Shown here piece by piece: positions 17,497 through 34,005 of a stretch of 35,260 nt of DNA (positions within the stretch are counted from its first letter, which is position 1; each line of letters opens with the position of its first letter). This stretch comes from Geobacteraceae bacterium (GTDB lineage Bacteria; Desulfobacterota; Desulfuromonadia; Geobacterales; Geobacteraceae), in NCBI GenBank assembly GCA_025356035.1, contig JANXYN010000150.1, positions 1 to 35,260 of the forward strand, read 5' to 3'. A program made the position numbers and the translations under genes. The notes below the pieces were generated by a model. That model did no database searches. It had not been told where the DNA came from and saw only the letters and a program-made list of their open reading frames with translations.

Positions 17497-18306
17497 TTAG
17501 TTGACTTTCAGCGCCTGCTCCAGAAGTGCCTTGATGTCATCCTTTTTCTTGGCGCCGATGCTGATATGGCCGTTGGGGAGAACCAGGGTCGGGGTGGTGC
17601 CAAGGCCGAGGGAGCCGGCGAGTTTGACACTCTCCCCTGCGTAGTCCTTGCCGCAGGCAAGCTTCGACAAAGCCTTCTTGTTGTAACTATCCTCCAGCAT
17701 CTTAAGCGCTCCAGCCATATTATCTCTGGCCTTGCAGAGGATCGACTCGCTCTTCCACTTGGCGTCCGGATGGATCGGAAGCGGATTGAGGACGATGTAG
17801 ACCTTCAGCTGCGGATCTTCCTTGACGAGCTGGCTGAGTTCCTGGTGGATCTTGCCGCAATAGGGGCACTCCGGGTCGGTAAAGAGCCAGAGCGTCTTTT
17901 TCCCCTTGCGGTTACCCATCACCACAGTGTTGTCGAGAGGGATCTTCGTCAGATCCACCACCATTGACTCCTCGACCTTCCGCATGGTGGACTGGGTCAG
18001 GTCCGAACGACTGGCGATGTCGATGATCCTACCCGCCACCAGGTGCTTCTTGGCAAAATCAAGGTAGGCGACCCCTGCCTGCCCATTCTTTTTCACGGTA
18101 AGCTGATAAAGGCCGCCAACCGGGGCAAGCGAGATATCCTCCACCACCATCCCCGGCTCCAGCTTGCTTATAATCGCTGCCGCATCTTCCTTTGTTATCT
18201 TGTGGCAGCCGGTGCAATCCCCCCCACACCCCTCAGCCCCTGTGCCGAAGCCGAAGGCCGCCGTGGCAAAGAACAGGCACCCCAACATCACCATTCCCCT
18301 CATCAT
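17497..18306 (-). CDS. DsbC-like thiol:disulfide isomerase with N-terminal CxxCH motif
   Basis: The 269-residue exported protein has a signal peptide (about 1-20), a dimerisation-like domain (about 40-120) and a thioredoxin-fold catalytic domain with the redox pair Cys147-Pro-Tyr-Cys150 (DPECPYCGKIH). The cis-proline segment is TTPTLVLPNG. This is the DsbC/DsbG layout, acting on mis-paired disulfides in the periplasm. Cys191 and Cys214 form a likely structural pair, as in DsbC. Unusually, just after the signal peptide there are three more cysteines including CTGCH at 31-35, which has the form of a c-type haem attachment site. The start is at the first of two adjacent ATGs. A good promoter lies upstream. 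It is divergent from the FapF-like gene. Confidence 0.92.
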   Translation of the reverse strand: MMRGMVMLGCLFFATAAFGFGTGAEGCGGDCTGCHKITKEDAAAIISKLEPGMVVEDISLAPVGGLYQLTVKKNGQAGVAYLDFAKKHLVAGRIIDIASRSDLTQSTMRKVEESMVVDLTKIPLDNTVVMGNRKGKKTLWLFTDPECPYCGKIHQELSQLVKEDPQLKVYIVLNPLPIHPDAKWKSESILCKARDNMAGALKMLEDSYNKKALSKLACGKDYAGESVKLAGSLGLGTTPTLVLPNGHISIGAKKKDDIKALLEQALKVN

Positions 18307-18603: not shown

Positions 18604-19740
18604 ATGAATTTGAAACTTTCCAGCTGTATTGCCATCTTCATCTGCCTGGTGGCTACCATGCCGGGTTTTGCCGAGGGTGGAACCCCGGACAAGCTTGCGC
18701 CAGCCAACGCCAACCAGCAGGAAAGCCAGCCGGTTCAACAACAACCTGCCCCCAAAAATGACGAGGCTCCGCCCCAGCAGGTCGGCCAGCCGCCGGAACA
18801 GCAAAAGGATACACATCCAGTTGAAGCCACAACCATCTTTGAGCAGACCGGGGTACTAACACCACGAGGTACCTTCGTCCTGGAACCATCTCTCCAATAT
18901 GCCCATTCCTCATCTAATCGGATTGCACTGGTGGGGTACACTTATATTCCCTCCGTTACCATCGGCCTCATCGACATTCGGAACGTGGAAAGCAACACCC
19001 TCGTCGCCGCGCTGTCAGTTCGTTACGGCATCACCAACCGGCTCGAGCTGGAAACCAAGATCCCATACGTATATCGAACCGAGTCGTCAGCAACCCAGTC
19101 AACCACAAATTCTGTCGCCCAGGTTTTCAGCGCTGACGGCAACGGCATTGGCGATGTGGAGTTTGCCCTGCGCTATCAGCTAAACCAGCCCAGTGGCAAC
19201 GATCCTTACTATATCATCGGGCTGCGGATAAAGTCCGATACCGGCAAGGATCCGTTCGACATCAACTATTCAACCACCGTGGCGGGCGCTGGTGGACAAC
19301 TACTCCCTACCGAACTGCCAAACGGATCGGGGTTTTGGGGTATTCAGCCGAGCCTGACCGCAATCTTTCCCTCCGATCCGGTGGTATTTTTCGGCAGCTT
19401 CAGCTATATGTGGAACGCGGAGCGACAAGTCGATACCGGCCCGCTGTCCCTGCAGGGAAGATACGACCCGGGCGATATCATCGGCTTCAATTTCGGGATG
19501 GGGCTGTCTCTGAACGAAAAGGCCTCTTTCAGCATCGGTTATGACCACAGCGTGGTCGGCAAGGTCAAGCAGAATGGCGTAATCATCCCGGGATCACTGA
19601 TTAGTCAGGTGGGAAGCCTGCTGATCGGATACTCCTATAAGTACAACGAAAAGACCAGCTACAACCTTTCGATCGCAGCTGGCCTCACGCAAGCGGCTCC
19701 GGACGTTCAGCTGACACTACGCGTCCCCATCAATTTCTGA
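18604..19740 (+). CDS. FapF-like outer-membrane beta-barrel transporter
   Basis: The 378-residue protein has a signal peptide (about 1-23), then a Pro/Gln-rich low-complexity segment (about 27-70) and a C-terminal beta-barrel (about 80-378). Alternating hydrophobic strands are plain, and the protein ends in Phe (VPINF), as expected for outer-membrane insertion. Phrases such as IGLIDIRNVESNT, GITNRLELETKIPYVYR, GIGDVEFALRYQ and FNFGMGLSLNEKASFSIGYDHS match my memory of FapF, the channel exporting the Fap amyloid of Pseudomonas. FapF normally has a periplasmic coiled-coil domain; here it is replaced by the Pro/Gln-rich stretch. A GGGGGG site precedes the ATG. The other Fap-like genes lie 7-10 kb away on the other strand. 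A general Phenol_MetA_deg-type transporter is the alternative. Confidence 0.82.
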   Translation: MNLKLSSCIAIFICLVATMPGFAEGGTPDKLAPANANQQESQPVQQQPAPKNDEAPPQQVGQPPEQQKDTHPVEATTIFEQTGVLTPRGTFVLEPSLQYAHSSSNRIALVGYTYIPSVTIGLIDIRNVESNTLVAALSVRYGITNRLELETKIPYVYRTESSATQSTTNSVAQVFSADGNGIGDVEFALRYQLNQPSGNDPYYIIGLRIKSDTGKDPFDINYSTTVAGAGGQLLPTELPNGSGFWGIQPSLTAIFPSDPVVFFGSFSYMWNAERQVDTGPLSLQGRYDPGDIIGFNFGMGLSLNEKASFSIGYDHSVVGKVKQNGVIIPGSLISQVGSLLIGYSYKYNEKTSYNLSIAAGLTQAAPDVQLTLRVPINF

Positions 19741-19847: not shown

Positions 19848-21086
19848 TCAATCAACGCTGGCAGAAAAACTAACCCCCGGGATTTCCGCGCCGTTGTCAT
19901 TAAAAACTGCGAAATTTGAAAATGTGAAATCGGGCTGTGGCGGTACGACTGGAAAGTCGCAGCGCAGCAAGGCAAACTCGCCGGTCAAGATCGGTACGTC
20001 AGATGATAGCGCGATTGTCACCGCGGCTGGCTTAGTGCCGTCCGGAGGGGTGTAACTGCTGCCAAATAAAGTATTTTGTGTCGTTGGGGTTACGCCGGAG
20101 GTCATCACGAAGCCACCGATCGGTGTTGTCGGTGTTTTTCCCGTTGTAAAATCGGCCCGCAGTGTCACCCCTGCTGGCAGATTTACGGTGGCATTTAACC
20201 CTTTCATGCTAATAACTCCCGCACTCACGACCGTACTGAGCCTGACAACCCGGACGCTCCCCCCCAAATTGCACAGATTTGTCTGGTTTACATCATTGAT
20301 GCCGGAGATGTTGTTAACCGACCCGAGAAATTCAACCAGTGCCGCCATGATGCTACCAGCCGTCTGCGCCGACATTATGCCGCCGGTGATATCTTTGCTT
20401 ATACTGTTCAGGGTGTTCTGCAACTTCGCGTCGGAATCAGAATCGGCATCTTTGCTCGCCAGCTGGGAAATGGCGGCCAGAACAAGGGTATACTCCTTCT
20501 CCTCCTGCGTTGAATAAGCACTGTCAAATGTAGTAGCCGTGAATTCCAGCGGCTGGGTGTTGATAATGTCCACCTTGAACAGATCCGACAGCAGTGTGTT
20601 TGCCGCATTGATACTGGTTTCAGTCAGCAGATTCCCCGCCTGTCGCACCGCCAACTCCGTCAGGGGTGTGACGGCAATTGTTAACATCGCGGTCTCGGGT
20701 GCTGCCGTAACAGCCGCCCGCAGCGGTTTGCTCGCCGGGATAGTCAAAATCTGGCCGGTCGCCTCATCGAGATATTCGCCAAAGGCCTTTACCAGGAGCG
20801 TCCCGCGATAATGGATTTTGACTGAATAATGACCGCCCGCATCGGTGGTGGTGGTCTGCAGCAGGTTCCCGACAGAGCCGTCGGAGTTTACCGCATAGAT
20901 TTGAACAGTCCCTTTCCTGAGGACTCCCTTGGCGGCCGTGCCACTCACCGCCGTTTCCACTGGGGAGGAACCGGCGGGCGTCGCCCCGCCGGTGTCGCTG
21001 CCACTAAACCCGCCAAATCCGCAACTGACCAAGCCAAAGGCCACCAGGGCAGAGATGAAGCTGCATAATAGGATTCGCATTTTCAT
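19848..21086 (-). CDS. Lipoprotein with carboxypeptidase-regulatory-like and cohesin-like regions
   Basis: The 412-residue protein has a lipoprotein signal with lipobox LVSC (Cys22). After a Gly/Ser/Thr-rich linker (about 23-48) comes a small beta domain resembling carboxypeptidase-regulatory repeats (GTVQIYAVNSDGSVGN, then TTDAGGHYSVKI). A helical middle section (about 115-265) follows. The last 140 residues look cohesin-like: VNLPAGVTLRAD, GFVMTSGV, then a TGEFALLRCDF strand and DFTFSNFAVFNDNGAEIPG. Cohesins bind dockerins, and the adjacent upstream gene encodes a protein ending in a dockerin, so the two may form an anchored pair on the cell surface. The genes are 66 bp apart on the same strand. 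Confidence 0.75.
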   Translation of the reverse strand: MKMRILLCSFISALVAFGLVSCGFGGFSGSDTGGATPAGSSPVETAVSGTAAKGVLRKGTVQIYAVNSDGSVGNLLQTTTTDAGGHYSVKIHYRGTLLVKAFGEYLDEATGQILTIPASKPLRAAVTAAPETAMLTIAVTPLTELAVRQAGNLLTETSINAANTLLSDLFKVDIINTQPLEFTATTFDSAYSTQEEKEYTLVLAAISQLASKDADSDSDAKLQNTLNSISKDITGGIMSAQTAGSIMAALVEFLGSVNNISGINDVNQTNLCNLGGSVRVVRLSTVVSAGVISMKGLNATVNLPAGVTLRADFTTGKTPTTPIGGFVMTSGVTPTTQNTLFGSSYTPPDGTKPAAVTIALSSDVPILTGEFALLRCDFPVVPPQPDFTFSNFAVFNDNGAEIPGVSFSASVD

Positions 21087-21152: not shown

Positions 21153-24100
21153 CTATTGCTTTTCGACAATTTTCTTCAGGATCACCACGGCATCGCCTAC
21201 ATCTATCTTGTTGTTCGGCACTGACACAAACTTTCCATCGACTTCCACCAGCGGTGCCACGTCGCCGTGGACCAGGTATTTGTCATCCATTTGGTCAAGA
21301 CCGACGGCAATACGGAGGGCTTGCAGGGCATCGAGGACATCCACCTCGCCTTTACCATCGAGGTTCCCGTCCAGAGCCCCGAAGAGAATCCTGCGCTGGT
21401 CGGTGGTTTCGTTCCCCCCCCCATCCGTAGCCTTGACAACAACCAGGTAGACCTTCTGTTCGGAAAAAGTTATATCCTGGTTAAAAGTTCCGATGTTTCC
21501 ATTGTATGTTACCGTCTGCGTTAACGGATTGTCCTTGGTTTTATCGATGGGATCGGGATCGATGGTGATGGTTACGCTGACAGCAGTCCGGGCGTCGGAC
21601 ACCGTCCCTGTTATCGTCATGCTTTTTTTGTCGAGCGGTGATCGCGTCAAGATCTGGCTTGGGGAGGTTATGATAAGGGACGGCAACGTCTCATCATAGG
21701 TGATTTTGAAACTATTCGAGCCTATGTTCCCGGCCTGGTCCTTGTCGATTATCGTGATGGTATTGTCACCGGGAGCAAGGGTTGCCTGCGCGCTGAAGCT
21801 GTTACTATTCAAGCCGATAGGCTGGGGCGAACCATTTACCTGCATGGTGACCGTCGTGTTCACCTTATCCACCGAACCTTTAACAGTGACCGTTTGCTTG
21901 TTGGTGACCGTTTGCTTGTCGGTCGGCTTGCTGCTGTCGACCGGCTCAGTAAAGCTGATGACCGGCTTGGTAGTAACAAAGGTAACTTTTCTCTGCACCA
22001 AGGTCTCGTTCCCCGCCGCATCGGTCGCCTTGACGGCGATCAGATAAGGATTTTCAGCTGCAAAGGTGATGGTCTGCTCAAACGCGCCGTTTACCACTGG
22101 CGTGGAGACGGTCTCGGTGTCTTTGGAGACGGTTACGCTGACGGTGGTTTGGGTGTCGGATACCGTTCCCTTTACAGTGAGGGAGCTCTGGTTGGTGGTA
22201 ATGTCCGTGGCGGGGACCGTCACGGTAAGGGACGGGGGCTGGTTGTCAAAGGTGACAGTCCTGGTCACCGTGGCGCTGTTTCCCACAACGGTGTCGGTTG
22301 CAGTTATCCCAATGGTGTTGACCCCGCTGCCGAGATTGACCGCTGCCGCCTTAAAGTCGTAATTGGTCATGGTGGCATTGTAGGGAGAGCCGGTGACTGG
22401 ATTCCCGTTGTTGGTCACCGTTATCACCACCGTGCTCGGTTTTCCCACCGTGCCGGTCACATCAATGGTTGCTATGTTTGTCTTCGTGTCTACCGCCGGG
22501 GCCGTAATGGTGATACTAGGAGCAGTCGTGTCATAGTGGACGGTTCTGGTGTCGCTGGTCTGATTCCCTGCATTGTCGGTGGCAATGGTGGTAATAACAT
22601 TGGCACCGGCAGCCAAAGCCAGAGAATAGCTGAACGAGCCGTCTGATGCGGGTGGCACGGCGGTCCCCTTGATGGTGAAGCTTTTCACACCGGTCCCGGC
22701 ATCCGAAACAGACCCTTTCATCAATAGTGTCCCATTGTTGGTGAATGACCCATCGGAAGGCGTTGAGGGATCGAAGGCCAGCGCGGGAGCTATCGTGTCG
22801 ATGGTCCAGGCATAGCTTGCCGGGGTCGGATCGGTGTTGCCTGCCTGATCTATGGCCCGGACGCTGAAGCTGTGGCCGCCATCGGCAAGAGTAAAACTGG
22901 CCGGAGATTGACACGGAGAATAGGGATTATTGCTCTCCAGACTGCACTCAAAGGTGGAACCGGTTTCGGTTGAACTGAACTTAAAGCTGACTGCCACCTT
23001 ATTGGAGAGTTCTAGCGGCTGGGTGCTAATGCTGGTATTGGGCGGTTCCGTGTCCCATACCAAGTTCATGTCGCTGAATGCGGAGTTGCCCGCTGCATCG
23101 GTGACGGTAAAGCGGAGAGTGTAGGTCCCGTCGGCAGTAGCTGTAACAGGAGTTGTCAGGGCGGTTGCCGAACCAAAGCTGATGGTTCCTGATCCCGCCT
23201 GCTTGCTCCAGATGTAGGTCTGCGGGTTGTCGTCAGTAGCCGTGGCCACCTGGGTAAAGGTCCCATTCCTGATCTGATTACCCCCGGCATTCACCTGTGG
23301 CGCGGTGGTATCAATTACCATGACTTTACTATCCGAGAGATTCCGTCCGTCGGGAATGTCAGGGTTGGTTGTTGCGTTTGTCGCGGCATCGGTTATTGTG
23401 CCGGTGAGAGGATTGATGATGCTCAGACTTGGCGAGGTCTGACTGGCTGCCACGGTGTAGCTTCCGCTATAGCTGGTTGCGCCGGTCAATGGGCCGGTTG
23501 TGATGCTGGCTCCCGAATTCAGGGCGATGGTCAGACCACTGGAAGAAACCGGCTTACTGAAGGTCAGCGTGATATTAATGACTTTCCCCGCTTTGTAATA
23601 GCCATCCCCTGTGGTCGAGGTGACGCTGACGACGGTCGGTGCTGTCGTGTCGACGGACCAACTGTACGTCGCTGGCGTTTGGTCAACGTTTCCGGCCTGA
23701 TCTATTGCCCGAACACGGAAGGTATGGCTCCCCGCAGCAAGCGCGCTGTAGCTACTCGGCGTAGTACAGGACACATACGCTGGCGTTGTCCCGCCGTCAA
23801 GGCTGCACTCGAAGATTGCGCCAGTCGGTTTGCTGCTGCTGAAACTGAAGCTGGAGCTGGTCTGGTTCGTCGGGTTCGGCGGCTGCGCCGTGATCGTGGT
23901 GTCCGGCGGCGTGGTATCAATAACGATTTTCCTGTTTGCAAAGTTTTGCCCCCCAGGAAAAGTCGGATCGACGGTGGCATTGCCGCCGCTATCGGTAATG
24001 GTGCCGGTTATTTTAGTTATGCTCAGACCTGGCGAATTCTGACCATCTGCCACGGTATAGTTTCCGCTATAGCTGGTTGCGCCGGTCAATGGGCCGGTTG

Positions 24101-26003
24101 TGATGCTGGCTCCCGAATCCAGGGCGATGGTAAGGCCACTGGAAGAAACCGGCTTACTGAAGGTTAGCGTGATATCGATGACTTTACCAGCTTTGTAATA
24201 GCCGTCCCCCGTGGTCGAGGTGGCGCTGACGACGGTCGGCGCTGTCGTGTCGACGGTCCAACTGTACGTCGCTGGCGCTTGGTCAACGTTGCCGGCCTGA
24301 TCTATTGCCCGGACATGGAAGGTATGGCTACCTGCGGAAAGCGCGCTGTAGCTACTCGGCGTAGTACAGGCCACATACGCTGGCGTTGTACCACCGTCAA
24401 GGCTGCACTCGAAGGTTGCGCCAGTCGGTTTGCTGCTGCTGAAGCTGAAGGTGGCGCTGGTCTGGTTCGTCGGGTTCGGCGGCTGCGCCGTGATCGTGGT
24501 GTCCGGCGGCGTGGTATCAATAACGATTTTCCTGTTTGCAAAGTTTTGTCCCACAGTCGGATCGACGGTGGCATTGCCGACGGAATCGGTGATGGTACCG
24601 GATATTTTAGCTATGCTCAGACCTGGCGAATTCTGACCGGCTGCCACAGTATAGTTTCCGCTGAAGCTTTGGGCATTGGACAACGCCCCGGTGGTGATGG
24701 AAGCCCCTGAATTGAGGTCGATGGTCAAACCGGCGGAGGTAACCGGCTCGCTGAAGTTTACCGTTATGGCGACGACCTTTCCGGCATTATAATAACCGTC
24801 AGGAGTGGCTGATGTGGCGCTTATCACCGTCGGCGCTGTCCCGTCATAAATGATATTTCTTACGACCGTGGTTTCATTCCCCACCTCGTCGGTCGCCTTG
24901 ACCATTATCTGGTAGGTATTCCCAGTGGGGAATGTGATCAGCTGCTCAAAGGTTCCGTTTGTGACCGTCGGCGCGAACGTGTCGGTACCCATGGTTATGG
25001 TGATGGTGACTGCAGTCAGAGCGTCGGATACCGTTCCCCTGATCGTGATGCTGCTTTGTTTTGTTTTTAAGTCTTGCGCCGGATCGGTAACGGCGAGGGA
25101 TGGTTGGGTGTTGTCGTAGGTAACGGATCTTTTCTGCGTGACCTTGTTCTGTGCCGTATCGGTAGCAGTCACTTCGATGGTGTTGAGCCCAGGGTCAACA
25201 TTAACAGATGCCGAAAAGCTGGTGCCCGACATGGTGGCACTGTAGGGAGACCCGCTGACGGAATTCCCGTTGTTGGTTACCGTTACCTCCACCGTACTCG
25301 ATTCGTCCACAGTGCCAGTGACACCAACCGGGATGAGGCTGGTCTTGCTGTTGTCCGCCGGGGTAGTGATGGCGAGCGCAGGAGCAGTCTTGTCGAGGGT
25401 GATGGTTCTCGTGTCGCTGGTTTGATTTCCCGCAACGTCAGTGGCGACAGTAGTTACGGTGTTTGCCCCGGTGGTCAGCACCAGCGGATGACTGAAAGAG
25501 CCGTCTGGCTGGCTGACCGTTACCGTGGCGCCATTGACAGTAAGGGCCGGGATGCCGTTCGCATCGGAGACCGTACCCTGGAGATTGAGAGTACTGATAT
25601 TGGTGTATGCGCCATCGGCAAGGGCGGAAATCTGCAGGGCCGGTGGAGTCAGATCGACCGTCCAACTGGCAATTGTGGGGGTTGCCTGCCAGTTGTCGGC
25701 GCTGTCCTTGCTGAGCACGTCTACCTGGTGCGCCCCTTCCTTGAGTGATGTAAGGTTTATCGGGATACTGATGTCATACTCTGCTGACTCGCCGCTGGCG
25801 GTACCGTTATAGCTGTATATATATTTATAAGCAACCAGATCGGCTCCGCCAATGGTCAAGGTAACGCTGGTGGACTTGGTGAACTCCGACGGAACGCCAC
25901 TGATGACAGCGTCCGCTGCAGAGGCCTTGTTGGCAGCGAAAAAACAAAACAGGAGCGTCGCTCCCGTCAACACTACGCTCATTTTGTTCATCCAGGTAGA
26001 CAT
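21153..26003 (-). CDS. Giant secreted Ig-like repeat adhesin with C-terminal dockerin
   Basis: The 1616-residue protein has a signal peptide (about 1-29, cleaved after ASA) and then about fifteen bacterial Ig-like domains of 80-110 residues. These are joined by recurring phrases such as DTTAPTVVSATS, TVSDA and VRAIDQAGN. It ends in a dockerin-type module (1544-1616): DGNLDGKGEVDVLDA is a textbook calcium-binding loop, and a second loop near NNKIDVGDA follows an insertion. Cysteine pairs occur only in the ECSLDGG-type domains. Such proteins act as surface adhesins; a dockerin implies docking onto a cohesin, possibly the neighbouring lipoprotein. The ATG at 26003 has GGAGG 7 bases upstream. The middle contains a near-identical 600-bp tandem duplication. 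Confidence 0.93.
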   Translation of the reverse strand: MSTWMNKMSVVLTGATLLFCFFAANKASAADAVISGVPSEFTKSTSVTLTIGGADLVAYKYIYSYNGTASGESAEYDISIPINLTSLKEGAHQVDVLSKDSADNWQATPTIASWTVDLTPPALQISALADGAYTNISTLNLQGTVSDANGIPALTVNGATVTVSQPDGSFSHPLVLTTGANTVTTVATDVAGNQTSDTRTITLDKTAPALAITTPADNSKTSLIPVGVTGTVDESSTVEVTVTNNGNSVSGSPYSATMSGTSFSASVNVDPGLNTIEVTATDTAQNKVTQKRSVTYDNTQPSLAVTDPAQDLKTKQSSITIRGTVSDALTAVTITITMGTDTFAPTVTNGTFEQLITFPTGNTYQIMVKATDEVGNETTVVRNIIYDGTAPTVISATSATPDGYYNAGKVVAITVNFSEPVTSAGLTIDLNSGASITTGALSNAQSFSGNYTVAAGQNSPGLSIAKISGTITDSVGNATVDPTVGQNFANRKIVIDTTPPDTTITAQPPNPTNQTSATFSFSSSKPTGATFECSLDGGTTPAYVACTTPSSYSALSAGSHTFHVRAIDQAGNVDQAPATYSWTVDTTAPTVVSATSTTGDGYYKAGKVIDITLTFSKPVSSSGLTIALDSGASITTGPLTGATSYSGNYTVADGQNSPGLSITKITGTITDSGGNATVDPTFPGGQNFANRKIVIDTTPPDTTITAQPPNPTNQTSSSFSFSSSKPTGAIFECSLDGGTTPAYVSCTTPSSYSALAAGSHTFRVRAIDQAGNVDQTPATYSWSVDTTAPTVVSVTSTTGDGYYKAGKVINITLTFSKPVSSSGLTIALNSGASITTGPLTGATSYSGSYTVAASQTSPSLSIINPLTGTITDAATNATTNPDIPDGRNLSDSKVMVIDTTAPQVNAGGNQIRNGTFTQVATATDDNPQTYIWSKQAGSGTISFGSATALTTPVTATADGTYTLRFTVTDAAGNSAFSDMNLVWDTEPPNTSISTQPLELSNKVAVSFKFSSTETGSTFECSLESNNPYSPCQSPASFTLADGGHSFSVRAIDQAGNTDPTPASYAWTIDTIAPALAFDPSTPSDGSFTNNGTLLMKGSVSDAGTGVKSFTIKGTAVPPASDGSFSYSLALAAGANVITTIATDNAGNQTSDTRTVHYDTTAPSITITAPAVDTKTNIATIDVTGTVGKPSTVVITVTNNGNPVTGSPYNATMTNYDFKAAAVNLGSGVNTIGITATDTVVGNSATVTRTVTFDNQPPSLTVTVPATDITTNQSSLTVKGTVSDTQTTVSVTVSKDTETVSTPVVNGAFEQTITFAAENPYLIAVKATDAAGNETLVQRKVTFVTTKPVISFTEPVDSSKPTDKQTVTNKQTVTVKGSVDKVNTTVTMQVNGSPQPIGLNSNSFSAQATLAPGDNTITIIDKDQAGNIGSNSFKITYDETLPSLIITSPSQILTRSPLDKKSMTITGTVSDARTAVSVTITIDPDPIDKTKDNPLTQTVTYNGNIGTFNQDITFSEQKVYLVVVKATDGGGNETTDQRRILFGALDGNLDGKGEVDVLDALQALRIAVGLDQMDDKYLVHGDVAPLVEVDGKFVSVPNNKIDVGDAVVILKKIVEKQ
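23452..24651. repeat. Tandem 600-bp duplication inside the adhesin gene
   Basis: The sequence from about 23452 to 24051 is repeated from about 24052 to 24651 with only scattered differences and a 6-bp length change near 23950/24550. Identical blocks tens of bases long occur at offset 600, for example the block at 23641 against 24241. Each unit encodes about 200 residues, that is two Ig-like domains. A third, more divergent copy of half a unit continues to about 24850. Confidence 0.9.
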
Positions 26004-26320: not shown

Positions 26321-26358
26321 AAAAAAAACAACCCGCTGCCTCGTCGTGAAGCAGCGGG
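26321..26358 (-). terminator. Intrinsic terminator of the Fap-like gene run
   Basis: On the minus strand an 8-bp GC-rich stem (CCCGCTGC at 26332-26339 with GCAGCGGG at 26351-26358) is followed by TTG and eight Ts (26328-26321). It lies about 50 bp after the stop at 26410 and should isolate the five-gene run from the adhesin gene. Confidence 0.92.
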
Positions 26359-26409: not shown

Positions 26410-26910
26410 TCAGCGCCCCGCGCGGATCAGCTGACCTTGCACCACGGAAGAAAGGTTCATTTTGCGAAACAGATCGAGATTCTTGACCGCTGCATTGATC
26501 ATGGTCAGGTTCTGGATGAGCTGTCTGTCCAAGGTGTTTTGGACGAAGGTTTGTCCACCAGGCAGTGTATTACTGCCGGCATTGGTCGGCACAAAACTGT
26601 TGCCTGGACCATTCTGCACCAGTGTAATCATGGAGGCCCGCAACTGCGCGGCCGATGATTGATTGATTGCCGTACCGATCTGGGGAAAGTTCAGCGTATG
26701 AATTGCCTGCATGACACCATTTATATAAATGACCCTTTCGATGCCGACCGAGATCTGCAAATCGTCGTTCATGACGAAGCCTCCGCGCATGGCGGCCAGT
26801 TCTTGATCGGTGGCAATCTGGTATGGTGTTAGTTCATCGGCAATAGCAGGCATCACAAGAGTAAAGACGATGACTGTTATCAGGTATCGTACTTTCAAAG
26901 GCGTTCCCAT
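26410..26910 (-). CDS. Secreted Fap-like small protein with double-glycine-type motif
   Basis: The 166-residue protein has a Sec signal peptide (about 1-24, cleaved after AIA). A motif TDQELAAMRGG at 34-44 resembles the double-glycine leader site recognised by C39 peptidases, followed by FVMNDDLQISVGIERVIYIN. The C-terminal half carries QTFVQNTLDRQLIQNLTMIN (120-139), related to the C-terminal motif of the two other secreted proteins in this run. Function unknown; it occupies the FapE-like position next to the peptidase. The start at 26910 was chosen because AAGGAG lies 6 bases upstream; an ATG at 26925 overlapping the peptidase stop is the alternative. The stretch before the terminator contains nothing else. 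Confidence 0.8.
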   Translation of the reverse strand: MGTPLKVRYLITVIVFTLVMPAIADELTPYQIATDQELAAMRGGFVMNDDLQISVGIERVIYINGVMQAIHTLNFPQIGTAINQSSAAQLRASMITLVQNGPGNSFVPTNAGSNTLPGGQTFVQNTLDRQLIQNLTMINAAVKNLDLFRKMNLSSVVQGQLIRAGR

Positions 26911-26921
26911 GTCACTCTCCT

Positions 26922-27620
26922 TCATAAACCTAAACCGCCTCGCACCGGCAAGAACAGGGACACATCTGCTAATCCCCTCCTTGTCAAAGCGATGTCAAGC
27001 GGCGCCTGCTTCCTCACATGCCAGTCCTGCGTACGATTGAAATAGTTCTTCGCCACATTCTTCTTGTTGCGCGCCAAAAAAACGAGTCCGTTCCACATCT
27101 TCTCGAACTCGGCACGTGGCACGATCCGCAGCCCCAGGGACGGGTCTCCCGTCAGGACCTCCTTCTCCGTCACCCCCTTGATCACGACAAAATGCCTGTA
27201 TCCATTATTGTTGATCAGAGCGATCGCAGGCACTCCTATTTCTCGCAGCCTATCAAGGGGAACTTTGAAGCCGTCCGCCTGGTACCCGTTGTTCTCCAGA
27301 TAGACCTTCATGTCAAGGAGCGAGAATCCTTCTTTGCGGATCTTTTCCTGGTCCCCGTGGTCAAACATGGCCTTCAAGACCACCTGTTCACTGACAGGGT
27401 CCTCGTAATGATAAGTAAGCAAGGTGGCCAGCGCTGCAGACCCGCAACTGTAGTCATACTGTTGCTGGATAACGGTACTGAAGCGGGTTTCCTTCAGGCT
27501 GGTCACCTTGACCGAAAAATTGCCAGGCACCACGACGGACCCTGCCTCCGCAGTGACCGCCGCCATTAACAAGCTAACAACTAAAATGAGGCCAACCAGT
27601 GGCATTTTCATGGCACGCAT
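26922..27620 (-). CDS. Periplasmic C39 family peptidase (FapD-like)
   Basis: The 232-residue protein carries a Sec signal peptide (about 1-26) and a papain-like C39 domain without the ABC transporter parts of bacteriocin exporters. The catalytic set is in place: Gln53 (oxyanion), Cys59 in YDYSCGSAALATLL, His143 in GYRHFVVIKG and Asp159 in TGDPSLG. This is the layout of FapD, the protease of the Pseudomonas Fap amyloid operon. It should cut secreted partners in the periplasm. The ATG at 27620 follows the previous stop by 2 bp, implying coupled translation; the frame also offers a TTG at 27626 and ATGs at 27611 and 27605. It lies between two of its likely substrates. Confidence 0.93.
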   Translation of the reverse strand: MRAMKMPLVGLILVVSLLMAAVTAEAGSVVVPGNFSVKVTSLKETRFSTVIQQQYDYSCGSAALATLLTYHYEDPVSEQVVLKAMFDHGDQEKIRKEGFSLLDMKVYLENNGYQADGFKVPLDRLREIGVPAIALINNNGYRHFVVIKGVTEKEVLTGDPSLGLRIVPRAEFEKMWNGLVFLARNKKNVAKNYFNRTQDWHVRKQAPLDIALTRRGLADVSLFLPVRGGLGL

Positions 27621-27622
27621 AC

Positions 27623-28015
27623 TCAATTCATGTACAAATTCATAATCAGGGGATTCTGGATGATTACCTGGTTACCCGTGTTCTGAATGACCGTCGCGAT
27701 GCCACTCGCGTTGGAAAAAGCATCCTGGTTCAGGGAATTGTTGCCGGTGGCGGTAGAAGTCAGGAAATTCCCGTTAACCGCCGCGTTGACCCTCATGTTG
27801 TTCAGCTGGATCAGCTGATCATTCACCGTATCCTGACGACCGGTTTGCTGCCTCAAATCATCGTTGGATATGGCACTGCCGACCTCTAAGCTGCTCAAAA
27901 CATCATTAGACATGGGCGATTGGAGGCCAACGTTTTCCGCCTGACACACCTGAACCCAAAATGTGCATCCAAGTAGAGAAATTCCAGCTACGAGAGCTTT
28001 TATGATGTGTCGCAT
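27623..28015 (-). CDS. Secreted Fap-like small protein with QNT motif
   Basis: The 130-residue protein is exported, either with a signal cleaved after CQA (residue 26) or as a lipoprotein with LLGC (Cys17). The motif SNDDLRQQTGR (50-60) has the same spacing as the double-glycine-like sites in its neighbours. The C-terminal part is rich in Asn and carries GNNSLNQDAF, then ASGIATVIQNTGNQVIIQ, closely parallel to the end of the repeat-rich protein upstream. Such paired Asn/Gln-rich, Gly-punctuated strands recall curli- or Fap-type amyloid subunits. The ATG at 28015 has GGAGGCGGAG upstream. The stop is followed 2 bp later by the peptidase start. Confidence 0.8.
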   Translation of the reverse strand: MRHIIKALVAGISLLGCTFWVQVCQAENVGLQSPMSNDVLSSLEVGSAISNDDLRQQTGRQDTVNDQLIQLNNMRVNAAVNGNFLTSTATGNNSLNQDAFSNASGIATVIQNTGNQVIIQNPLIMNLYMN

Positions 28016-28074
28016 ACTCCGCCTCCTGATTTTGGGCCGTTCTCACTAATTTGTCCCGCCTCAAACGGGAAATA

Positions 28075-28101
28075 CCCGGTAGCGGAATGACCGCCACCGG
28101 G
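28075..28101 (-). other. Hairpin between the repeat-rich protein and the downstream genes
   Basis: CCCGGTAGCGG (28075-28085) pairs with 28091-28101 with one mismatch around a 5-base loop. No T run follows on the minus strand. It may stabilise the 3' end of the upstream message or reduce read-through, allowing the major secreted protein to be made in excess. Confidence 0.6.
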
Positions 28102-28124
28102 CGAACATCTCAGGTAAGACTTTT

Positions 28125-28946
28125 TTATGGTTTGTTAACCTGCACGGTAACGGATTGCTGAATCAGCGAGTTCACGCCGGTGTTCTGGGCTGCCGCACTG
28201 ATGCCGGCGGCACTGCCAAAGCTGTCGGTCATATTGTTGTTGCCGGTATAAAGCGACGATTTTTTGCCACCGAGATCAATGCAGGTTCCTGAAATTGCTC
28301 CAGCCAAGTCGCTCTTGGCAACGGCGATGTCTACACTACCGATATTGACACTGGAGTTGTTGTTGGAATCTTTTATTTCGCTGCTGGTTTCGGTTTTGGT
28401 TTCGGTGCTTGTCTTGGTTTCAGTATTGTAGGAATGATCATTTTCGCTATTTGTCTTGTTGACGTCTACAGTTTTGCTGTCGTGAGAGTCTTCGCTCTTG
28501 GTCACTGAAATGGTTTTGGAATTGTCGTTGAACGAATCTTCATTCTTCTTCACTTCAACGGATTTGTTAACGCTGACAGTTTTGTCGGCGTTAATAGTTT
28601 TGACGTTGTTAGAGTCTTCGGTTTTGTTAACGGTCGTAGTTTCGGTCGACGTTTTGTCGATGTCAACAGTTTTGGTGTTGCCAGAGTCTTCGGTTTTGGT
28701 AACGGTAGTAGTTTCAGGTTTGTTGACGGTAACAGTTTTGGTGTTATTGGAATCTTCGGCTTTGTTAATGGTAGTAGTTTCAGTTTCGGTGCTGGTCTTA
28801 TTTACGTCTACATTAACAGCCGTGCCGCCGTCCTGGGAAACGGCAGAATCCGAGGTTTTCGCAACGCTTTCGTCTGCCAGTGCCGGGATGCTGAAAGCCA
28901 CTACAAGTGCCAGAATTGCCAATAAGCTGATTAGTGTCCGTTTCAT
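28125..28946 (-). CDS. Repeat-rich secreted protein, candidate FapC/FapB-like fibre subunit
   Basis: The 273-residue protein has a clean Sec signal peptide (about 1-24, cleaved after ALA). Residues 45-200 are a low-complexity region of Thr, Lys, Asn, Asp, Ser, Glu and Val containing five imperfect units built on K-x-E-D-S-x3-K-T-V. The C-terminal 39 residues (235-273) form a separate module with GNNNMTDSFGSAAGI, then QNTGVNSLIQQSVTVQVN. This matches the C-terminal motif of the next gene's product at Gly-Asn-Asn, Phe, Ala, Gly-Ile, Gln-Asn-Thr-Gly and Ile-Gln. Only one cysteine is present (in GTCIDLGG). Composition and context suggest a secreted fibre or matrix protein. AAAGGAGAG precedes the ATG. 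Confidence 0.85.
   Translation of the reverse strand: MKRTLISLLAILALVVAFSIPALADESVAKTSDSAVSQDGGTAVNVDVNKTSTETETTTINKAEDSNNTKTVTVNKPETTTVTKTEDSGNTKTVDIDKTSTETTTVNKTEDSNNVKTINADKTVSVNKSVEVKKNEDSFNDNSKTISVTKSEDSHDSKTVDVNKTNSENDHSYNTETKTSTETKTETSSEIKDSNNNSSVNIGSVDIAVAKSDLAGAISGTCIDLGGKKSSLYTGNNNMTDSFGSAAGISAAAQNTGVNSLIQQSVTVQVNKP
28430..28790 (-). repeat. Imperfect tandem repeats in the repeat-rich secreted protein gene
   Basis: DNA units of roughly 48-78 bp recur, each carrying a variant of agagtcttcggttttg (for example at 28611, 28683 and 28750). They encode five K-x-E-D-S units of 16-26 residues. Units differ at most third positions, so the array is not recently amplified. Unit borders are approximate. 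Confidence 0.75.
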
Positions 28947-29027
28947 TTTGTTCTCTCCTTTGTTGAGTTAGTTTGTGTGCTCCAAATTTTACGCCATCTT
29001 TGTGCAGCCCTGCGAGTTTCAGTCAGT

Positions 29028-29432
29028 TCAGTGTGTCCACTCACCCCCTTTGATTGATATTGTGCTGATGATCTGTCCTTCCCTCAGATTGAGGGTCGTA
29101 GCTGGACTCCGCTTCGGCGTCGTCTCGTCCCATAAAATGATGGCTGAAATTCTGCTGCTACCGCTATCAGGAGTGAGGGGACCAAGTGCGCGCCCCTTTA
29201 CAACTCCAAGCTCCTCATCACTGAGCTTTGCTCCCTCCAAGTCAGGCTGTGCCGGGCTGAAAAAGTTGGCACCATTAATCTCCCCGCAGTCATAAAGAGC
29301 CTTCCCTCTGGCCAGTGGGCTGTATATGGAAACATCCAGCGTCCCCAGCCCGGCAAGCACTATTGTCTCTTCTGCAGCTGCGGTCCCAACAGCAAGAAGC
29401 AGAAAAAGGAAACTTTGAAGGACTCTTTTCAT
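29028..29432 (-). CDS. Small secreted protein, first gene after the sigma-54 promoter
   Basis: The 134-residue protein has a Sec signal peptide (about 1-20, cleaved after AAA). It carries LSDEELGVVKGR at 70-81, which closely resembles a double-glycine leader (LSxxELxxIxGG) except that the last Gly is Arg. The segment after it (82-134) ends in strands with Ile/Thr alternation. One cysteine (Cys49) is present. I do not recognise a domain. The start at 29432 is preferred because AGGA lies at proper distance; a GTG at 29450 is possible. It is the promoter-proximal member of the secreted-protein run, 81 bp before the repeat-rich gene. Confidence 0.75.
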   Translation of the reverse strand: MKRVLQSFLFLLLAVGTAAAEETIVLAGLGTLDVSIYSPLARGKALYDCGEINGANFFSPAQPDLEGAKLSDEELGVVKGRALGPLTPDSGSSRISAIILWDETTPKRSPATTLNLREGQIISTISIKGGEWTH

Positions 29433-29487: not shown

Positions 29488-29505
29488 TAGCAACTGCCGT
29501 GCCAA
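29488..29505 (-). promoter_or_regulatory. Sigma-54 (-24/-12) promoter of the secreted-protein run
   Basis: The minus strand reads TTGGCACGGCAGTTGCTA. It has the -24 GG and -12 GC separated by exactly 10 bp and matches the TGGCACG-N4-TTGC consensus almost fully. Transcription would begin near 29479, about 47 bases before the ATG at 29432. An activator gene of the sigma-54 class lies next door. Confidence 0.92.
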
Positions 29506-29553
29506 AGTAAAAAGCGTGTGATATCGGCAACTTGGCAATTGGTGCCATGACAG

Positions 29554-29600
29554 AAGTGTAAAGCTGACGGACGGTTTCACTTTACAGGAGCTTTACACTT
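29554..29600. promoter_or_regulatory. Candidate upstream activator site for the sigma-54 promoter
   Basis: AAGTGTAAAGCT (29554-29565) and its perfect 12-bp inverse (29589-29600) are separated by 23 bp. The core TGTAAAG occurs three times: once forward (29557-29563) and twice inverted (29580-29586 and 29591-29597), the last two exactly 11 bp apart. The array sits about 75-120 bp upstream of the predicted start, the usual place for enhancer-binding proteins. Confidence 0.75.
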
Positions 29601-29850
29601 CGTGAACTAGTAGCGGAATTAAAGGGACTCCACGCTTTTACTTGTGACAGTCTGGAGGATATGGCGGCGGTTAACCATAGGGAGAGGTCCGACCTGTCCA
29701 AAGCTCAGAAATGCGCCCGACAGATGGTTTTGCCGCTGAGGTGGCCGGGGTAGTGCGCCAGAGCCTACAGATAAGCAGCGAGGAAATGACAAGTAGCAGG
29801 AAGTTTCTGTTTGGCGAAAAACAGTGAAAGGAAAACAGCAGGAGATGTTA
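29601..29850. other. Non-coding stretch between the activator site and the activator gene
   Basis: A 38-codon frame (29711-29827, plus strand) lacks a ribosome site and any recognisable motif. No other structure was seen apart from the hairpin immediately downstream (29851-29886). Confidence 0.45.
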
Positions 29851-29926: not shown

Positions 29927-31402
29927 TTATTGGGAGGGAAGTTTTATCTCGTACTTTTTCATCAATGCATAGAGACTTGGCCTGCTTATGCGTAAAACCC
30001 TCGCGGCGCGGGCAATGACAAAATTGGAAGTGGCAAGCGCCTCCAGTACCAGGTCTTTCTTGGCTTCAGAGACCTTGTCGCTAAAGGTGGTAGGTTCTTT
30101 GCCAATGGTTATGGTCTGCCGGTCCAGTTCCATGTCACAAGGCTCTATGAACTCTCCGCCGGCCATCACCGCTCCCCTTCGCACCTTATTGATAAGCTCC
30201 CTCACATTCCCTGGCCAGGAATATTCTCTGATCGCCCGCAAGGCTGCCTCGGAAAAACCTTTGAGCGAGCTTTTGCCAGCCAGCCCGATTTTTTTTAAGA
30301 AGTACTTGGCCAGGAGTACCGGATCCTCACCCCGCTCTCTCAAAGGCGGGAGCTTGATGGTAAAGGCATTGAGCCTGAAAAAGAGGTCGTGCCGGAAACT
30401 CCCTTTCTCGATCATGCCGTTCAGGTCGCAGTTCGTAGCCGCGACGATTCGCACGTCCACCTTCCTGCCGCTTTTGGCTCCGACCTTTTCAACCGTCCTG
30501 TCCTCAAGAAACCTTAGCAGCTTGGCCTGCAAGCCGGGTGATAGATCCCCTATTTCGTCCAGGAAAAGCGTGCCACCATCGGCAATTTCGAATTTGCCCA
30601 GTTTCGTTGCGTAGGCGCCGGTGAAAGCCCCCTTTTCATAGCCAAAGAGCTCTGCCTCAAGCAGCCCCTCCGGTATGGCAGCACAGTTGACAGCGATAAA
30701 GGGTTTCCTCTTTCGTTCACTCCTTTCATGAATGGCAGCAGCCGTAAGTTCCTTCCCGGTACCGCTTTCTCCAAGAATGAGAACGCTCATGTCGGTCCGG
30801 GCGACTTTCCTTATCATAGAGAACACATCAAGCAGGGCGGGAGAAGTCCCTACGAACTCACGATCCGGCGATTGCCCTTGAATATTCAGCAATTCCGTAT
30901 CGATAAAACTGATAATCCTCTGGAGGTGCTCAGATTCTAGCCTGTTCTGTCTTCCCTTTATCCTTGCCGTAAAAGTATTTACAAAATGCCTGTCAAGATA
31001 GGCTGCATCCTTGAAATCCAGATAGTTGCCGCATTTCCCGCAGGATTTTCCCCCCGCACCGTTGTTATGGCCACAGTATGGGCACCCCTCCTGGCTCGAC
31101 AGAGCCTCCAGCAGATAATCCCAGAGCATCGGTATGATAGTTCTGTCGGGATAATAGAAGCGCACGGCAGCACGACTATTGTTAGCCCTTACAACCTCGG
31201 CAAACAACTCGATTTTGCCGAGGTTTGGAAATTTTGGCGAGATGGTGATTGGCTCTTTAATCTCAAAAGATAGGCCTTCTATCAAGGCACCGCTTAAACT
31301 TAACTCGTTAACGGTAACCGTTTCCTCACGCTGGTCAACTCCGGAAAGGAAATACACGCTGGCAGGTAATCTTGTTTTAACCCTCACATCCAATCTCGAC
31401 AT
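29927..31402 (-). CDS. Sigma-54-dependent activator with PilZ, zinc-ribbon, AAA+ and Fis HTH domains
   Basis: The 491-residue regulator has a PilZ domain (about 1-100; RxxxR at 7-11 and ELSLSG at 33-38, a near-consensus c-di-GMP site) and a zinc ribbon with Cys107, Cys110, Cys121 and Cys124. The AAA+ domain follows: Walker A GESGTGKE at 211-218, the sigma-54 loop GAFTGA at 258-263, Walker B near LFLDEIGDL. A Fis-type helix-turn-helix ends the protein (about 455-485). No receiver domain is present, so input is probably c-di-GMP rather than phosphorylation. The start at 31402 gives the PilZ domain directly; the frame remains open to 31525 but crosses the promoter. It likely activates the adjacent sigma-54 promoter. 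Confidence 0.93.
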   Translation of the reverse strand: MSRLDVRVKTRLPASVYFLSGVDQREETVTVNELSLSGALIEGLSFEIKEPITISPKFPNLGKIELFAEVVRANNSRAAVRFYYPDRTIIPMLWDYLLEALSSQEGCPYCGHNNGAGGKSCGKCGNYLDFKDAAYLDRHFVNTFTARIKGRQNRLESEHLQRIISFIDTELLNIQGQSPDREFVGTSPALLDVFSMIRKVARTDMSVLILGESGTGKELTAAAIHERSERKRKPFIAVNCAAIPEGLLEAELFGYEKGAFTGAYATKLGKFEIADGGTLFLDEIGDLSPGLQAKLLRFLEDRTVEKVGAKSGRKVDVRIVAATNCDLNGMIEKGSFRHDLFFRLNAFTIKLPPLRERGEDPVLLAKYFLKKIGLAGKSSLKGFSEAALRAIREYSWPGNVRELINKVRRGAVMAGGEFIEPCDMELDRQTITIGKEPTTFSDKVSEAKKDLVLEALATSNFVIARAARVLRISRPSLYALMKKYEIKLPSQ

Positions 31403-31680: not shown

Positions 31681-31953
31681 TTACTCATCTTTGATAAATT
31701 CGAAGGCGATACCCTCAGCAGCGACTCGCACCACTCGCCCCTTCAGGACCGGTGCTGGCTGGCCGTTTACCGGGGAAGTCAGCTGCAGCAGCATCTCATC
31801 GCCCGCTGCAGGCGAAGGCACGAAATCAGCATGGATAAAAGCACCGCCGTTACTGAAATCCCGTGTGGTCCCAACAATGGTTTCCCTGTCTGGTCTCGTT
31901 ACCCGAACCTGCAGGGCAAGCTCAAAGCGTTCGTGCTTACGCAGCTCTCTCAT
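31681..31953 (-). CDS. Single-domain PilZ protein (c-di-GMP receptor)
   Basis: The 90-residue protein is a complete stand-alone PilZ domain. Both c-di-GMP-binding signatures are intact: RKHER (Arg5 and Arg9) and DFSNGG (Asp32, Ser34, Gly37). The start at 31953 is preceded by GGAG; the frame extends back to a TTG at 32007 but adds residues outside the domain. It should bind c-di-GMP in the cytoplasm and act on an unidentified partner. It lies just upstream of the activator gene, 155 bp from its promoter, on the same strand, which ties this area to c-di-GMP signalling. Confidence 0.92.
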   Translation of the reverse strand: MRELRKHERFELALQVRVTRPDRETIVGTTRDFSNGGAFIHADFVPSPAAGDEMLLQLTSPVNGQPAPVLKGRVVRVAAEGIAFEFIKDE

Positions 31954-32036
31954 CGGCAAATGCTCCGTCGTGGCAAGGTAGATAATATCTGGACATAATT
32001 TAAGCAAAAATAATGCCGGCCCCTACCACACTGCGC

Positions 32037-32802: not shown

Positions 32803-34005
32803 TCAACAGATCGGGTACTTCCCCCGCCCCAGTTCCAGGCATAAATTGGCGATGCCGGCAAACTCCCGCACAAAGATCTCCTCCGCCTGGCGGGCGATCT
32901 CGTCAATCCGCCGGCCGCGCTCCAGCAGTAGCTGGGCTGTTGCCATCTGCGGTCGGTCGATGGGGGTACCGATCCGGCTCAGCAGCAGCACATAGACCTC
33001 CCGAACACCGCCGATCTCCTCATAAATCTGCCGGGCGAGCCGATGGGCCAGGACGTTGTAGATCTTTCCCACATGACTCACCGGGTTCTTCCCTGCTGCC
33101 GCCTCGGTCCCCATCGGACGGTTCATGGAAATCAGTCCGTTGACACGATTGCCACGCCCCACCTGCCCTGAATCGGCATCCTCCGCCGAAGTACCAAGAA
33201 GACTCAGGTATATACCATTCAGCCCGCGTCCGGCGACGTCGAGAGTGTTGAAGTGGACTTCCCGACTGGTATAGCCGGGGCAAGCCGCCACAAACCGTTC
33301 CAGCTCCCTTTGAATCTCCGCTTTCCGGGCGAAGTATGCTGCTTCCGATCCGACCTGGCTGGCCAGGAGCGGCATGGCCACGGTCAGATCGAGAGTTTTC
33401 CCCTGGCGGAGCCCCATCACCTTGACGTCCTCCCCGGTGTCCGGAAAAGCGGCCTTGAACCCCACCGAATTGAGATGGTGCTCCAGTTCCAGGACCACCT
33501 GCTCGGTGGGACTCAGGGGGTAATAGCCGACCGCGGCCGAGGTGTCGTTGGCGGGAAGCACCCGCCCTGGCCGGGCAAAGATGTCGGTCAGCTCCGCCGA
33601 GCCGTGAGCGAGGACCGGCCGGTAGCGGACGTGCTGCTCCGGGTCGACAAAGCGCAGATGCTCACGAAACCATTGCTTGGCTGCACCGATGGCGATCTCG
33701 GCCACCGGCAGCTCCCGGCCACCGGCGCCGAACGTGGCGCGGTCGCCGATGGTAAGTTCCATCGGCTGCAACACACGACCGCCGCCATACCATTTCTCCA
33801 CCCGCCCCGCCGCCAGCAGCCCCTTGTCGATATTGTGGTGGAGAATCGCACCAAACTCCCGGAGGTACGCCCCGGACAGGGCCACCGAGATCGCATCCAT
33901 GACGGCATCACAGATGAAGTCGGGATGGCCGGTCCCCTTCCGCTCAACGATCTCCACACGGTGGTCGGTGACGCTCTTCCCCTTGAAAGTCTCGATGACG
34001 ATCAT
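32803..34005 (-). CDS. S-adenosylmethionine synthetase, archaeal type
   Basis: The 400-residue protein belongs to the archaeal AdoMet synthetase family (the type with about 400 residues found in methanogens), not to bacterial MetK. Signatures are RKGTGHPDFICD near the N-terminus (22-33), GNRVNGLISMNRPMGTEA and AAGKNPVSHVGKIYN. It makes S-adenosylmethionine from ATP and methionine in the cytoplasm. GGTGAGG precedes the ATG at 34005. A minority of bacteria carry this form, sometimes beside a regular MetK; whether this genome also has MetK cannot be seen. slyX follows downstream. Gene composition matches its neighbours, so recent transfer is not obvious. Confidence 0.95.
   Translation of the reverse strand: MIVIETFKGKSVTDHRVEIVERKGTGHPDFICDAVMDAISVALSGAYLREFGAILHHNIDKGLLAAGRVEKWYGGGRVLQPMELTIGDRATFGAGGRELPVAEIAIGAAKQWFREHLRFVDPEQHVRYRPVLAHGSAELTDIFARPGRVLPANDTSAAVGYYPLSPTEQVVLELEHHLNSVGFKAAFPDTGEDVKVMGLRQGKTLDLTVAMPLLASQVGSEAAYFARKAEIQRELERFVAACPGYTSREVHFNTLDVAGRGLNGIYLSLLGTSAEDADSGQVGRGNRVNGLISMNRPMGTEAAAGKNPVSHVGKIYNVLAHRLARQIYEEIGGVREVYVLLLSRIGTPIDRPQMATAQLLLERGRRIDEIARQAEEIFVREFAGIANLCLELGRGKYPIC

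Follow-up and report, generated by a model that had tools for sequence, protein, structure and literature searches.

A stretch of 35,260 nucleotides from a Geobacteraceae bacterium, hereafter the window, encodes an exported C39 peptidase in the midst of genes for other exported proteins, which raises two questions: whether the locus is a Fap-type secretion system, and what its peptidase would cut. An initial annotation had described five adjacent minus-strand genes, four for Sec-exported proteins and one for the peptidase, with a sigma-54 promoter and a terminator of their own. This layout was borne out by the coordinates, by a perfect promoter site and a stem followed by a T run, and by Sec-type N-termini in 5/5 proteins, the signal peptides being assigned by a simple heuristic. 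The gaps in the P5-P4-P3-C39-P1 run measure 81, 109, -4 and -4 nt. The relevant features are listed below.

18604-19740, plus strand: FapF-like outer-membrane barrel, matching NCBIfam FapF and FapF crystal structures
19848-21086, minus strand: 412-aa lipoprotein-like protein, a recurrent neighbour
21153-26003, minus strand: 1616-aa Ig-like repeat protein, a recurrent neighbour
26332-26358, minus strand: intrinsic terminator, 11-pair stem and T run
26410-26925, minus strand: P1, FapE-like exported protein; predicted leader ATDQELAAMRGG, followed by F
26922-27626, minus strand: FapD-like exported C39 peptidase; TTG start, with an ATG at 27620; catalytic residues intact
27623-28015, minus strand: P3, Sec-exported subunit; predicted leader ISNDDLRQQTGR, followed by Q; single divergent C-terminal Fap repeat
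28125-28946, minus strand: P4, Sec-exported repeat protein with KxEDS units; C-terminal module in common with P3
29028-29432, minus strand: P5, small Sec-exported protein of the LWDE family; predicted leader LSDEELGVVKGR, followed by A and then ILWDE
29489-29504, minus strand: sigma-54 promoter TGGCACGGCAGTTGCT, the sole perfect match in the window
29553-29601: inverted repeat upstream of the sigma-54 site, with 13-nt perfect arms; likely activator site
29927-31402, minus strand: sigma-54 activator with PilZ-like N-terminus, AAA+ and Fis HTH

Homologues of FapD, FapE and FapF

The peptidase matches Pfam Peptidase_C39 at 2.6e-24 and NCBIfam FapD at 1.9e-45, where its 155 bits fall below the equivalog cutoff of 330. 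The catalytic residues named in the initial annotation, Gln53, Cys59, His143 and Asp159 by ATG numbering (Gln55, Cys61, His145 and Asp161 from the TTG), are indeed intact, and the catalytic Gln, Cys, His and Asp are invariant across 10 FapD-type peptidases. The barrel, which had been placed about 7 kb away, lies approximately 6.7 kb from the run; it matches NCBIfam FapF at 1.1e-44 (153 bits, below the equivalog cutoff of 700) and FapF crystal structures at 4.5e-34 to 1.1e-32. A search upstream of the fapF-like gene for a sigma-54 site, allowing one mismatch, found none. A DsbC/DsbG-like thiol oxidoreductase (17497-18306; 5.2e-16 to DsbC) is encoded divergently from it. P1, whose gene adjoins the FapD-like gene, was aligned with FapE by profile-profile comparison at a probability of 90%, with 40 column-shuffled controls reaching at most 0.6%. 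This alignment covers the N-terminal segment, leader included, and P1 alone matches NCBIfam FapE weakly (1.5e-4; 21 bits against an equivalog cutoff of 250).

Two other known systems with C39 peptidases come close to this locus. The FilB/FilC "putative pilus system" of NCBIfam likewise combines a C39 peptidase with a FapF-like barrel, and the window proteins match FilB at 2.8e-32 and FilC at 1e-13. However, both proteins fit the FapD and FapF models far more closely, and the locus includes a FapE-like protein, which makes a Fil-type rather than a Fap-type system highly improbable. Peptidase-containing ABC transporters (6mpz, 4ry2) share C39 homology with the window protein, which matches the C39 domain of 6mpz at 3.7e-9, and they share leaders with L(-7), a hydrophobic residue at -4 and G(-2). 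In contrast to these transporters, the peptidase here is a stand-alone exported protein without ABC parts, a Sec signal precedes the leader, and position -1 is often R or K.

With the Pseudomonas Fap system (fapABCDEF), the locus shares a FapD C39 peptidase, a FapE-like protein, a FapF barrel, an exported subunit with a Fap-type repeat and the order subunits-D-E. This order reads here as subunit-subunit-D-E with F separated, as compared with fapABCDEF or fapBCDEF; fapF lying apart from the other genes has been described before (PMC3792158). The locus differs from its Pseudomonas counterpart in that FapB and FapC have three repeats whereas each subunit here has one divergent C-terminal repeat, in that the P5-P4 interval, the expected place of FapA, has no gene, and in having an LWDE-family gene and a canonical GG leader in P1.

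A predicted double-glycine-type leader behind the Sec signal

Double-glycine leaders of C39 peptidases have L at -7, a hydrophobic residue at -4 and G at -2. Such leaders, which had escaped the initial annotation, are found in the run: P1 shows L(-7), hydrophobic(-4), G(-2) and G/A(-1) in ATDQELAAMRGG, while the P3 and P5 leaders end in GR and therefore match the double-glycine pattern only in part. P1 and FapE-family proteins have in common [LIVA]xxxx[LM]xxxRG[GRK]/[FY] directly behind the signal peptide, the slash marking the predicted cut. Among 17 aligned P1 homologues the glycines of RGG are the only invariant columns, L(-7) and R(-3) are nearly invariant, and the next residue is Phe or Tyr. 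The P3 leader lies in the same register as that of P1, with G(-2) invariant. Since no FapE above the NCBIfam cutoff was found in 370 gammaproteobacterial genomes, nor in plasmids, the motif was examined in FapE-family members below the cutoff; gammaproteobacterial members carry RG[RK][YF] in the register of P1, for example LSDPELAQMRGR followed by F. AlphaFold2 models of P1 (17 sequences) and P3 (12 sequences) gave a pLDDT of about 49 and no confident globular fold; at this low confidence, both show a short helix immediately before GG or GR.

A weight matrix was built from 22 leaders and applied at a threshold score of 12. The threshold was exceeded by 23 of the 232 exported ORFs outside the training set that lie on the strand of a C39 gene and no more than 3.5 kb from it, and by 0/321 elsewhere; with signal peptides assigned by a simple heuristic and related genomes not being independent, these counts serve as guides and not as probabilities. 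The matrix gives low scores to P3 leaders. Loci fetched later (L118-L124, including Cupriavidus metallidurans CH34) also carry the predicted leader, as VSDHDLSSMRGG, VSDAELATLRGG, LSNSSLEEYRGG and LTDDEMSSLRGG, each followed by F, LADGELAHLRGR followed by Y, and LSEEVLARQRGG followed by I; the P3-type protein of C. metallidurans has VASSKLDDVRGG followed by A. The matrix and these later loci are fairer tests than a leader expression tuned after seeing examples, which in the distant C39/FapF-like loci L029 and L103-L113 was present in 22/61 near and 2/65 far proteins. Exported neighbours in those distant loci have leaders in register ending in GQ, AG, AQ or GG. On an Acinetobacter plasmid (L125 4340-5637), two paralogues adjoining the C39 gene both have LSRQEMKDTQGA in the leader register.

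Previous work located FapD activity in the periplasm and showed its Cys to be required for FapC secretion; complete N-terminal processing was seen for FapE alone, its first ~70 residues yielding no peptides, the FapD target was judged unclear, and Pseudomonas Fap proteins were stated to lack canonical C39 sequences (Rouse 2017, PMC5557850). The same study weighed FapF as a FapD target, given GG/GA motifs near its linker, and a 2025 review states that FapD "is thought to" process FapE and FapF. RG[GRK][FY] might accordingly be a structural or barrel-targeting element with no cleavage at it, the C39 peptidase cutting FapF or another protein, and both the GR ending in P3 and P5, less canonical than GG, and the stated lack of canonical C39 sequences in Pseudomonas Fap proteins also count against a leader. 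We regard this alternative as improbable, since the same register recurs in the otherwise dissimilar P1/FapE, P3 and LWDE families, is concentrated near C39 genes and near-absent from exported ORFs elsewhere, and FapE is itself N-terminally processed. Thus, the P1 leader, placed in the register of bacteriocin-type double-glycine leaders, is probably the C39 cut site behind the export signal. This proposal fits the data of Rouse 2017, with the leader read from FapE-family members, none of them of Pseudomonas. By extension, there are reasonable grounds for expecting a general route of this kind, within Fap systems and outside them: periplasmic C39 peptidases that stand alone would cut proteins exported by Sec at double-glycine-type leaders located behind the Sec signal, with FapE, P3-type and LWDE proteins as substrates and GQ/AG/GA variants in distant loci.

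A divergent Fap repeat in P3 and, by homology, in P4

The QN(T)...IQ C-terminal motif that the initial annotation had noticed in three proteins was found in P1, P3 and P4, and the K-x-E-D-S repeats of one secreted protein were confirmed as five copies in P4, where the units sit on a 66-72 bp tandem repeat. The accompanying statement that the secreted proteins lack the Fap repeat had to be corrected, since both a repeat model and profile comparison identify the motif as a divergent single copy of that repeat. The C-terminal modules of P3 and P4 match each other with a profile probability of 96.7%, and against a profile built from 17 Fap repeats the P3 module reaches 89%, as compared with a maximum of 52% among 40 controls. 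Compared directly with the Fap repeats, the P4 C-terminus did not rise above a shuffled control, and the link between P4 and the Fap repeat therefore runs through P3. In a set of 837 proteins, the Fap repeat model picks out this module in P3 relatives and in P4 relatives, with E values of 3e-5 to 0.03. The three imperfect repeats of FapB/FapC are absent from these subunits, P3 having one divergent repeat and P4 one by homology to P3, and a search of the genome, run without a positive control, returned no FapC match at E 0.1.

The Fap machinery could alternatively secrete non-amyloid matrix or adhesin proteins, with P4 forming no fibres. P4 is highly charged, carries one divergent repeat and lacks a direct Fap repeat match above control, and the Ig-like giant is a recurrent neighbour, all of which speak for this alternative; the match of the P3 module to the Fap repeat and that of P4 to P3 argue against it. 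On balance, secretion of non-amyloid proteins appears unlikely, although clearly less so than the readings set aside above, and we retain fibre-forming subunits as the preferred reading. The Ig-like giant ends in a dockerin-like sequence (GNLDGKGEVDVLDALQALRIAVG), with no Pfam match in its last 115 residues.

P5 and the LWDE family

P5 carries a leader in the register of P1, ending in GR. Across 10 aligned members of its family, only L(-7), G(-2) and LWDE are invariant besides the start Met. Operons that contain FapB and FapC (L080 and L087) also include members of this family, the FapC of L087 scoring above the NCBIfam cutoff. NCBIfam names 0/10 of the LWDE members and P5 has no Pfam match; the family is thus a small conserved part of these operons that goes without an NCBIfam name.

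Promoter and regulation

Nine relatives also have a sigma-54 site, with one mismatch or none, in front of their first gene. A near-identical inverted repeat together with the same sigma-54 site is present once more in the genome (contig C134:1748-1857, L060), where it precedes the gene for a 772-aa protein. This protein has the domains Ice_binding, DUF7933 and DUF11, and the sequence that follows the site is similar to the start of P5. The PilZ domain of the activator adjacent to the run is borderline (2.1e-4), and activators of related loci carry either PilZ domains, with matches down to 1.4e-10, or VpsR domains, with matches down to 4.9e-22. Both domains are linked to c-di-GMP, which makes c-di-GMP control of the operon plausible. 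FleQ control of fap was sought as a precedent, and a FleQ regulon study makes no mention of fap. Just upstream of the activator, the window encodes a small PilZ-domain protein (31681-32007; 1.1e-12). At 32803-34005 lies a gene for an S-adenosylmethionine synthetase of family PF01941 (1.4e-157), which we take to be the archaeal type, here in a bacterium.

Distribution and phylogeny

Loci of this kind recur in relatives with the order sigma-54 activator, P4-type, P3-type, C39 and P1-type, with FapF adjoining and often also the Ig-like giant and the lipoprotein. C39 homologues do therefore adjoin repeat-rich and barrel genes, as would be expected from the association drawn in the initial annotation. 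The C39 search gave matches in 11/48 genomes of the family, that of the window included, and the P3 profile in 13/117 genomes of the order, namely the same 11 with the C39 and two from a sister family, in which the loci likewise include C39 and P1. Colwellia carries comparable loci, as do MAGs labelled Nitrospira and Rhodovibrio, and others lie on replicons of Cupriavidus metallidurans CH34, Vibrio and Photobacterium. In the C39-domain tree, window-type loci form one clade (support 1.00), every member of which has a P3-type subunit and none a Fap repeat subunit of the three-repeat FapB/C kind at E <1e-8; in the sister group of canonical Fap loci, nearly all have such a subunit at that threshold. 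The FapD, FapE and FapF homologues, the recurrent gene order and this separate clade support the initial proposal of a distinct Fap-like secretion branch.

Proposed mechanism and significance

Taken together, these findings lead us to consider it likely that the locus encodes a divergent system of the Fap type for exporting and assembling surface fibres, in which the C39 peptidase cuts double-glycine-type leaders, a FapF-like barrel provides export and c-di-GMP acts as a switch. The reading builds on homology, gene order, catalytic residues, the sigma-54 site, and the leader register with its restriction to C39 neighbourhoods; from this sequence evidence we infer cleavage, the roles of P3, P4 and P5, barrel export, fibre formation and c-di-GMP control. 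All components would reach the periplasm via Sec, where the FapD-like peptidase would remove the second, double-glycine-type leader of P1, after RGG and before Phe/Tyr, and probably also those of P3 and P5, after GR. Leader removal would license passage through the FapF-like barrel. P4 is likely the main subunit and P3 would be a minor or nucleating one, with P1 as a putative FapE-like starter or anchor and P5 as a putative accessory factor. The sigma-54 activator, through its PilZ-like domain, would probably turn the operon on with c-di-GMP.

A 2025 survey found FapB and FapC to have three repeats almost universally and called Fap evolutionarily "fixed" (PMC12822426). The window-type clade departs from this picture, and screens anchored on the FapB/FapC repeats would be expected to miss it. 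The protease activity of FapD is needed for Fap amyloid secretion and its target and site have been an open matter since 2017 in the literature considered here; the conserved leader described here names a candidate site that can be tested and would answer this question about how Fap fibres are matured.
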